From positions 1-64,000 of the forward strand of contig QKIH01000106.1 in NCBI GenBank assembly GCA_003249645.1: a DNA stretch of 64,000 bases, given 5' to 3'. This DNA comes from Desulfobulbaceae bacterium (GTDB taxonomy: Bacteria; Desulfobacterota; Desulfobulbia; Desulfobulbales; Desulfocapsaceae). Positions within the stretch are counted from its first letter, which is position 1, and every line of letters begins with the position of its first letter. Positions 52,577 to 55,075 of the stretch are shown here, piece after piece. Made by a program: the position numbers and the translations under genes. The notes beneath the pieces were generated by a model. That model worked only from the letters and a program-made list of their open reading frames with translations, made no database searches and was not told the origin of the DNA.

Positions 52577-52615
52577 ATGGTAAAGAAAATAAATGGGGGA
52601 TTGTATGTGGAATAG
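52577..52615 (+). CDS. 12-residue upstream ORF overlapping the omptin start
   Basis: AGGAG lies 5 bases before ATG 52577. The frame MVKKINGGLYVE ends at TAG 52613-52615, 10 bases inside the omptin gene in another frame. Translation of it would carry ribosomes onto the omptin start, giving coupling. It may instead be the original start region of a gene now shifted. Small and unproven. Confidence 0.35.
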   Translation: MVKKINGGLYVE

Positions 52616-53606
52616 ATGCAAAATGCTTGGTTCGGTTGCAGGTACTGCTTTAGCTACCTGTTTTTTTCTGTCAGTTCCATCTGTGGATGCAGCGGTAAAT
52701 GTCGTGAATTCAGAAAAATCCGCAGAACTTGTAAAGAGTGAAAATGCTGATGGCTCAGTAAAATTTTCTCTTGGTCTTGGTGCCGCCTATCTGACGGGTG
52801 AATCTCATGAACTCGTCTACTGGCCTGAATACAACAATCACAAGGCCAGTGAACTTACCTGGAAGATTGACAGCCTCTATATGGCTAATATTAATGCCAC
52901 TCTTGATATATATAATGATTGGTTTATTCATTTTGACGGCTGGTTTAAAGTCACCGATGGTGATGGAGCTATGGATGACTATGACTGGATGAATGTCGGC
53001 GGCGACTGGACCGACTGGTCTCACCATGACGATACTGATGTTACCTCTGCTAGCATGATCGATATTAGCGGCGGATGGAAAGCTGTGAATAAAGAGCGAT
53101 TCACTCTGTCAGGTCTTGTTGGGTATAAGAGAGATGTCTTCGGCTGGGAATCTTATGGCGGAAGTTACATTTATTCGGAGTCAGGTTTTCGTGATTCCAG
53201 CGGAAATTTTGCAGATGGTGCACTGGGCATCAGTTATGAACAGACTTTTAGTTCGATTTACGTGGGGCTTGGAGCCGAGTTTACCTTAAGTGATATGATT
53301 TCTTTGAGTGGCCGTGCAATTTATTCTCCTATAGTGCAGGCTGAGGCGGATGATCATCACTACGAGAGTAATTTTGTAACCTACGATGATTTCAGCGGGG
53401 GGGATATGTTCGGCTTTGATGTTTCTGTTATTATCAATATCTCTAAAAGTCTTGCCCTTGATGTGGGATACAGCTATCTCAACTATGATGAAATGCAGGG
53501 CGATTCCGACTGGGATTATGGTTACGGAATATATACAGCAGCAGATGGGGCAGGTGCAGACCATAACTCATCGTGGTTTTCTGTAGGCCTGCGTTATTCT
53601 TTTTAA
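52605..53606 (+). CDS. Omptin-family outer-membrane protease
   Basis: A 333-residue protein with a signal peptide (cleavage near VDAA, residue 30) and a ten-strand beta-barrel ending in LRYSF. Omptin signatures are KASELTWKID, MDDYDWMN, WTDWSHHDD and GGSYIY. The catalytic set of OmpT (Asp83, Asp85, Asp210, His212) aligns with Asp125 and Asp127 in MDDYDW and Asp250 and His252 in DHHY, all present. Such proteases cleave between basic residues at the cell surface and need LPS for activity in enterics. Start ATG 52605 with GGGGGA 4 bases before. An unknown exported protein gene follows 23 bases later. Outside gamma-proteobacteria the physiological substrates are unknown. Confidence 0.92.
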   Translation: MWNRCKMLGSVAGTALATCFFLSVPSVDAAVNVVNSEKSAELVKSENADGSVKFSLGLGAAYLTGESHELVYWPEYNNHKASELTWKIDSLYMANINATLDIYNDWFIHFDGWFKVTDGDGAMDDYDWMNVGGDWTDWSHHDDTDVTSASMIDISGGWKAVNKERFTLSGLVGYKRDVFGWESYGGSYIYSESGFRDSSGNFADGALGISYEQTFSSIYVGLGAEFTLSDMISLSGRAIYSPIVQAEADDHHYESNFVTYDDFSGGDMFGFDVSVIINISKSLALDVGYSYLNYDEMQGDSDWDYGYGIYTAADGAGADHNSSWFSVGLRYSF

Positions 53607-53629
53607 AATACAGGCGATTCACGCAAAAG

Positions 53630-54316
53630 ATGGTGAAGCAAGAAAATGATATGGTACAGGCGGTACAACTTGCTGTTTGTACCATCATTTTTTTTCTGCT
53701 GACAGTAACAGCCGCTGTTGCAGATACCGGGGGATCTTTGAAGACAGTACATGTGAGCCTTGCAGCCGCAGAGGGGATGGCGACCATAGAGGATGGAAGC
53801 AGCATTCTGTTTGTTGACTACAAGCGCGGTTTAATGAGCAGATGGCAGAGCTCAACCGGTGGTTGTGTACAATACAATATTTCAAACAGCGGGCAGGAAG
53901 ACAGTGAACTGAAGGATCGTATCCGCCTCTTCAGCGAGATCGAACGTTTACCGGATGAGGAGGAAGACTTTTATCCGGTAAGACTGATGCTGGCGCCGGC
54001 AGCGATGAAGACCAGGACTGTAACTACACCAAAACTGGTCTGGCATGATTTTGTTTTTCAACCCGATATCCTGCAGTTTAAAATGGCGGCAGACAGCAGT
54101 ATCTTCAGAGACCTGCAGGAGATTGCCAAGATCAATAAGGTTAATTACGACACGATAGGCCTGACCCACTGGTATGATATTGTAGCTCTCATTCCATATC
54201 TGGGCGGTGTCCCTGAAATGGCGAGAAACCGGCAATTCCTTTTCACCTATTCTTTCACTTTAATGTCCTATAATGCACAGCAGAGCCAGTTGACAGCGCT
54301 GTGTGGTAAGCAGTAA
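53630..54316 (+). CDS. Unknown exported protein next to omptin
   Basis: A 228-residue product. A signal peptide is evident (VQAVQLAVCTIIFFLLTVTA, cleavage near AVA). The mature part has two Cys, an acidic stretch (LPDEEEDFYP) and a C-terminal part with HWYDIVALIPYLGGVPEMARN. I recognise no family. ATG 53630 is taken; ATG 53651, at the start of the signal peptide proper, is equally possible since neither has a strong ribosome site. The 23-base gap to the omptin gene suggests co-transcription, so it may be a periplasmic partner or an unrelated envelope protein. Confidence 0.65.
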   Translation: MVKQENDMVQAVQLAVCTIIFFLLTVTAAVADTGGSLKTVHVSLAAAEGMATIEDGSSILFVDYKRGLMSRWQSSTGGCVQYNISNSGQEDSELKDRIRLFSEIERLPDEEEDFYPVRLMLAPAAMKTRTVTTPKLVWHDFVFQPDILQFKMAADSSIFRDLQEIAKINKVNYDTIGLTHWYDIVALIPYLGGVPEMARNRQFLFTYSFTLMSYNAQQSQLTALCGKQ

Positions 54317-54393: not shown

Positions 54394-54412
54394 AATGAGA
54401 ATTATTCTCATT
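54394..54412. promoter_or_regulatory. Fur box
   Basis: AATGAGAATTATTCTCATT is a perfect 9-1-9 palindrome matching the Fur consensus. TATAAT follows at 54416-54421 as a -10 box, so a repressor here would cover the promoter of the A-type carrier gene. Iron control is therefore strongly suggested. Confidence 0.8.
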
Positions 54413-54442
54413 TAATATAATTATTAAATGGAGTTATATATA

Positions 54443-54802
54443 ATGGTAGTGTTAAGCGACAATGCAAAGGCAGTAATTAAGAGAAAAACTTCGGAACAGG
54501 ACTATATTCGAATAACTGTTGCCCCTGGCGGATGTGCAGGGATGACTTATGATGCTGCAATTGTTCAAAATATCCAGCCAGGTGAAAAGCTCGTGCAGGA
54601 TAATGACGGCATCAGAATAATTTCCAACAGTGCCAGCCTGCCTTACATGGAGGGCTTGGAAATTGATTATTCCGATGATTTAATTTCGGCAGGATTCAGG
54701 TTCAATAATGAAAAAAATGAGTCATCCTGCGGCTGCGGGGCAAGTTTTACCCTTGCAGGTTTTCCTCAATTCATTACAGGAGGTGAAAGCTGTGGCTGTT
54801 AA
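54443..54802 (+). CDS. A-type Fe-S carrier (IscA/HesB family) with extra C-terminal CxC
   Basis: A 119-residue protein. The three conserved Cys are Cys31 (GGCAGM) and Cys96/Cys98 (SCGCG), in the C-x64-C-x-C spacing of A-type carriers that bind iron or Fe-S clusters for delivery to apoproteins. Unlike IscA, the protein continues past the usual end and finishes with a second pair, Cys117 and Cys119 (SCGC-end). ATG 54443 has GGAG 9 bases upstream; the earlier in-frame ATG lies in that site. It is preceded by a Fur box and overlaps the next gene by 11 bases. No iscS/iscU genes are near, so it may serve a special target or iron storage. Confidence 0.85.
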   Translation: MVVLSDNAKAVIKRKTSEQDYIRITVAPGGCAGMTYDAAIVQNIQPGEKLVQDNDGIRIISNSASLPYMEGLEIDYSDDLISAGFRFNNEKNESSCGCGASFTLAGFPQFITGGESCGC

Positions 54803-55010
54803 TCCAGTACCTCTTTTAGGCGGCAAATCGGTTTACTGCATAAACGAACAGCAGATGGAAGAAGCTCACAAATTAACCGAGCAGACAGGTGAGGCTTCGG
54901 TGAAAATCCAGGCTTTTATCGAAGAGGCCCAGGAGGAGCTGACCAGAAATGAACAGGCTGCCCTGGCATTTATGCTGATAAAAAGGCTGAAAGATACCTC
55001 AGTCCATTAA
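54792..55010 (+). CDS. Small helical partner of the A-type carrier, 72 residues
   Basis: GTG 54792 is chosen because AGGAGG sits 8 bases upstream, inside the carrier gene, and the frame overlaps the carrier stop by 11 bases. The product opens AVNPVPLLGGKSVYCINEQQ (one Cys) and then is charged helix (EASVKIQAFIEEAQEEL, FMLIKRLKD). Tight coupling under the same Fur box suggests a protein partner made in equal amount. No family recognised. A terminator follows 27 bases later. Confidence 0.7.
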   Translation: MAVNPVPLLGGKSVYCINEQQMEEAHKLTEQTGEASVKIQAFIEEAQEELTRNEQAALAFMLIKRLKDTSVH

Positions 55011-55037: not shown

Positions 55038-55075
55038 ATATTTCAGGGGCAGCTGTCAGCCCCTGAAATATTTTA
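55038..55075. terminator. Bidirectional terminator
   Basis: A 13-bp perfect stem (55038-55050 with 55059-55071), an 8-base loop and short T-rich flanks on both strands. It separates the Fe-S carrier pair from the convergent dihydropyrimidinase operon. Confidence 0.8.

Follow-up and report, generated by a model that had tools for sequence, protein, structure and literature searches.

An A-type Fe-S carrier gene paired with an unclassified small protein in a Desulfobulbaceae bacterium: a candidate accessory of Fe-S delivery

Introduction

It is not settled how A-type carriers obtain their clusters and select their clients; a study of 2019, listed among the references of PMC8593673, reportedly dealt with an A-type module that feeds lipoyl synthase. 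The A-type carriers IscA, SufA and ErpA (PF01521, TIGR00049) are the closest likenesses of the carrier described here, with which they have in common the fold, the size and the cysteine triad with a C-terminal CGCG motif. In vitro, lipoyl synthase receives clusters from human ISCA2 (PMC7915201); when iron is low, the A-type carrier ErpA is supplied by GrxD (PMC11327457); and a precedent for Fur control is the suf operon of E. coli, which Fur represses (PMC8593673).

The locus lies in a stretch of 64,000 nucleotides from a Desulfobulbaceae bacterium (the window), where an A-type carrier gene runs into a small gene, hereafter the partner, within the following set of features:

54394..54412, no strand assigned: Fur-type palindrome AATGAGAATTATTCTCATT, perfect over 19 bp (9-1-9), with the carrier ATG 30 bp downstream
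54443..54802, plus strand: A-type Fe-S carrier of 119 aa with the Cys31/Cys96/Cys98 triad and a flexible tail ending in GGESCGC (PF01521, TIGR00049, AlphaFold model)
54779..54783, plus strand: Shine-Dalgarno GGAGG of the partner, spacing 8, within the codons that encode the GG tail of the carrier, with similar sites in Desulfobulbales relatives
54792..55010, plus strand: partner gene with a GTG start, 72 aa, a GGKSVYCIN motif and then three predicted helices, overlapping the carrier by 11 nt
55038..55071, plus strand: intrinsic terminator-like hairpin with a 13-pair stem and a T-rich stretch behind it, 28 nt downstream of the partner's stop codon

From sequence comparison, the partner would be an accessory protein dedicated to one subfamily of A-type carriers and acting in [Fe-S] delivery, encoded with its carrier in a two-gene operon that is probably derepressed at low iron in the window's organism, a reading to which we assign a probability of about 0.6. 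No description of such a carrier-partner pair was found in the literature. Being small, purifiable and strictly paired, the partner offers a concrete candidate for a factor that confers specificity on A-type carriers or mediates hand-over.

The carrier

By profile, cysteine triad and predicted fold, the first gene of the pair encodes an A-type Fe-S carrier. Its best start is the ATG at 54443, with GGAG 9 nt upstream, rather than an earlier in-frame ATG at 54428. The protein matches PF01521 (Fe-S_biosyn) with an E-value of 5.6e-16 and 59.2 bits against a curated cut-off of 26.3, and TIGR00049 with an E-value of 1.5e-25 and 89.4 bits against a curated cut-off of 58.8; Cys31, Cys96 and Cys98 are invariant in alignment A3. 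Its relatives in the PDB are AQ_1857, IscA and SufA, the first two being the closest, and its AlphaFold model resembles the IscA/SufA structures 1r94, 2d2a and 1x0g with E-values in the 1e-7 range, while residues 95-119, tail included, have a pLDDT below 50 and no confident placement. The carrier differs from IscA, SufA and ErpA in that it stays below their equivalog cut-offs (SufA, 75.0 versus 136.2; IscA, 66.7 versus 150.6; ErpA, 62.0 versus 117). Moreover, unlike these proteins, the partner-bearing carriers precede an unclassified small protein, and those of the Desulfobulbales add a flexible tail.

The partner family and its distribution

The partners (alignments A1 and A2) have an invariant GGxS(V/I)xC motif and an RN box in the region of the last helix, and the Cys of the motif is present in 46/46 of them, a count to be read with the fact that the locus script located the partners by this motif, which the genome searches did not use. 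The predicted structure consists of a disordered N-terminal arm followed by three helices, in agreement with the helical nature foreseen for the 72-aa protein in the preliminary description. In close pairs with measurable dS, the dN/dS of the partner is 0.04-0.17, as under purifying selection, and these low values, together with homologues in 45 other genomes, rule out that the partner is a chance ORF.

No relatives of the partner were found in Pfam, NCBIfam, PHROGs, PDB sequences or Foldseek; specifically, scans of Pfam and NCBIfam with 32 members at E 0.01 returned nothing except one spurious tropomyosin match, and the partner thus represents a protein family missing from every family library searched. 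Accessory proteins known from other Fe-S carriers or assembly systems, namely IscX, frataxin, GrxD, BolA and IBA57, resemble the partner in concept only and differ from it in that the 32 partner members have no family match in Pfam or NCBIfam.

Genome searches sampled three phyla, that is, the window's phylum, Verrucomicrobiota and Pseudomonadota. Within the window's class, 17 of 258 genomes have the partner; a sample over the window's phylum gave 2/395 genomes (the window's own and one other, both within the 17), and Verrucomicrobiota gave 29/388. One further weak match in Verrucomicrobiota (G710), interrupted by stops, proved on inspection to be devoid of the motif, and a single very weak partial match of 23 residues among 398 Pseudomonadota genomes is not credible; plasmids and viral contigs yielded no credible homologues.

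In all 46 loci, a same-strand A-type carrier lies directly upstream of the partner, at a spacing of -11 to +100 nt. The 17 partner-bearing Desulfobulbales carriers form one clade in the carrier tree (SH-aLRT 97), its sister consists of 11 partner-less Desulfobulbales carriers, and the verrucomicrobial carriers fall outside. With the distant outgroup used, a single loss of the partner would explain this topology, but the root is weak and the partner may instead have been gained or transferred.

Gene neighbourhood and proposed function

In 12/29 verrucomicrobial loci, the gene that follows the partner is lipA (L077, L078, L106 and L109), nfu (L103, L105, L187 and L188, with lpd divergent upstream) or nifS (L190-L193, about 1 kb away in L193), four loci each, and along the carrier tree these 12 contexts amount to about three independent arrangements, not to 12 independent events. 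Furthermore, rrf2-sufB is divergent in L077, L106 and L109, accompanied by sufC and sufD in the last two. Representatives of lipA, sufB, sufC, sufD, lipoamide dehydrogenase and Rrf2 score above the NCBIfam cut-offs; the neighbouring desulfurases have strong NifS matches that stay short of the equivalog cut-off, and Nfu_N is assigned by Pfam. The tested Fe-S neighbours are missing from the other 17/29 verrucomicrobial loci, and none of the tested Fe-S genes occurs in the examined flanks of the Desulfobulbales loci (0/17), so that the functional link of the latter is borrowed from Verrucomicrobiota. The pair had been described as free of isc or suf context, which is true in the window, where no such gene lies near the module, but fails for the family. 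In one verrucomicrobial clade (L112, L115, L116 and L117), the region about 0.2-1.2 kb beyond the partner repeatedly encodes a conserved protein of about 610-670 aa with no assigned function.

The lipA, nfu, nifS and divergent rrf2-suf neighbours in Verrucomicrobiota point to [4Fe-4S] delivery, and lipoyl synthase would be a plausible client on the grounds of gene order and A-type precedents. The linkage of a verrucomicrobial A-type gene to nfu and lipA recalls NfuA, in which an A-type-like domain is fused to Nfu, and the human route from ISCA2/NFU1 to lipoyl synthase; here, in contrast, the genes are separate, the cysteine triad is intact and a small partner is added. In the proposed mechanism, the partner would bind the carrier, its flexible N-terminal arm, which has the GGxSVxC motif and a single invariant Cys, may aid the carrier in taking up, holding or passing the cluster, and the three-helix part may dock either on the carrier itself or on a protein further along the route, be it Nfu, the SUF scaffold or a client. 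Gene pairing alone does not prove binding between carrier and partner, and the carriers of the sister Desulfobulbales clade manage without a partner, which counts against this explanation. The dedicated iron or Fe-S delivery module suggested earlier is favored by the conserved carrier-partner pair in two phyla and by the Fe-S delivery context in Verrucomicrobiota, although the comparison does not support the CxC of the carrier tail as a defining part of it. A more ambitious version, put forward tentatively and with the odds somewhat against it, holds that the partners are an obligate accessory family whose one invariant Cys shares or gates the carrier's cluster, the two proteins acting as a unit for [4Fe-4S] delivery to lipoyl synthase-like clients in two phyla.

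Two other roles for the partner have to be weighed. It is rather unlikely that the partner regulates the carrier, as an inhibitor or as a Cys-based sensor that lets go of the cluster depending on Fe-S status, instead of helping delivery: its small size, its helices and the lone invariant Cys of the disordered arm would suit this role, as would the tight coupling given by the gene overlap in the Desulfobulbales, but the pair shares apparent operons with the delivery and assembly genes lipA, nfu and nifS, and the partner matches no known regulatory family. Quite improbable is a carrier that donates iron and not a cluster, with the partner binding iron and acting as an adaptor for the cysteine desulfurase in the manner of IscX or frataxin, which would agree with the four verrucomicrobial loci in which nifS comes right after the pair, with the Fur-type operator in the window and with a small helical partner. 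However, the partner has no match to the IscX or frataxin families in Pfam and no profile similarity to E. coli IscX, the latter comparison being a lead only, and downstream delivery is the better fit for the eight loci with lipA or nfu as a neighbour.

Gene overlap and the carrier tail

Carrier and partner probably form a two-gene operon with translation coupled through the overlapping start, an arrangement that would give matched synthesis of the two proteins in the Desulfobulbales, and the position of the terminator-like hairpin shortly after the partner stop supports the two-gene unit. The 11-nt overlap is fixed in 15/17 Desulfobulbales, mostly with the partner GTG overlapping the tail Cys codon and the partner ribosome site in the codons just before this Cys. 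Likewise, the GGAGG of the window falls within the tail codons, exactly where the preliminary description had placed the ribosome site of the 72-residue gene, with correct coordinates and anatomy. Because the partner GTG overlaps the tail Cys codon (T-GTG), this codon is common to the tail Cys and the partner start, and part of the carrier tail, as read from its codons, is explained by the gene overlap.

The window carrier indeed combines the normal Cys31/Cys96/Cys98 triad with a second C-terminal CxC (tail S-C-G-C), as first described, but comparison does not support the weight then given to this CxC, either as what defines the carrier or as a functional element. Two tail Cys occur in 2/17 partner-bearing Desulfobulbales carriers (CGC in the window, CDC in L069), 13/17 have a single one, and the remaining two (L072 and L076) have none and retain the partner. 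Among the 29 verrucomicrobial partner-linked carriers, none has a tail CxC, the tail itself is missing from many, 24 have no tail Cys and five have Cys-rich tails, which brings the partner-linked carriers without any tail Cys to 26/46; a single tail Cys occurs, too, among the partner-less Desulfobulbales carriers of the sister clade. The homologue search proposed for the tail CxC and the downstream gene together thus returned the downstream partner in 45 other genomes, but the CxC in L069 alone. Since few partner-linked carriers have it, the CxC is not a defining feature, and on its conservation (2/17 and 0/29) it was rejected as a functional signature; an added metal-binding site defining a variant, for which the CxC of the window and L069 and the five Cys-rich verrucomicrobial tails could be adduced, is very improbable given these counts, a tail with no confident placement in the model, and tail codons that contain the partner's ribosome site and start. 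The tail of the L106 carrier is a Gly-Cys-rich extension with repeated GGGCGSGGCGSGGCGS, present in a shorter form in L077 and L078.

Iron-dependent control

The perfect 19-base Fur palindrome announced for the promoter is confirmed. Within at most 3 mismatches, the AATGAGAATTATTCTCATT palindrome has its sole place in the window at 54394-54412, with 0.03 expected in shuffles, and at zero mismatches this is also the sole reported match of ATGANAATNATTNTCAT in the 3.74-Mb assembly. The palindrome agrees with the Fur consensus AATGATAATTATTATCATT at 17/19 positions, and three FUR-family genes are present in the same genome (87% complete), so that the genome combines a Fur-type palindrome at the promoter with Fur-family genes, as expected of a Fur regulon. 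In the window's organism, this operator probably keeps the pair repressed as long as iron is plentiful and lets it be expressed at low iron, a condition in which a carrier with a chaperone would be of most use; such derepression is deduced from the motif. The locus resembles the Fur-repressed suf operon of E. coli in having an A-type carrier behind a Fur-type operator, and differs from it in having no suf genes and a box that is not seen in relatives.

As to a wider Fur-type regulon in this genome, the 62 places of the ATGANAATNATTNTCAT type at up to 2 mismatches did not reveal one: those inspected are mostly intragenic or ahead of unrelated genes, and no recognizable iron genes lie behind them, which leaves the local Fur motif without independent calibration. 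Conserved Fur control of the family was likewise rejected, as no box was found upstream of the other partner-linked carriers (n=45), with best agreements of 9-14 of 19 positions in a comparison that covered the late loci L186-L195 only in part. Within the loci compared, the box is seen in the window's genome alone, and iron control would therefore be a local trait; the link to iron shortage made at the outset is probable for the window's organism, but has no counterpart in the relatives compared. The sole same-genus genome searched (70% complete) showed no carrier with which the box could be compared at short range.

Directly before the Fur-type box, a predicted protein of 247 aa that matches no family is encoded at 53573-54316 of the plus strand, preceded upstream of the module by an Omptin-family outer-membrane protease at 52593-53606 of the same strand (PF01278, E 4e-51). 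Lastly, the genome has two more PF01521 genes, plus a NifU_N gene on another contig. One of the two HesB-like genes (L003:1447-1749, C126) encodes a HesB-like protein that has no Cys triad, with SGASSSSNLGF replacing GGCxG, and is possibly a degenerate carrier; the other (L002:1447-1785, C168) encodes a second HesB-like protein with the C-terminal end GGGGGCGGSCSSCG.
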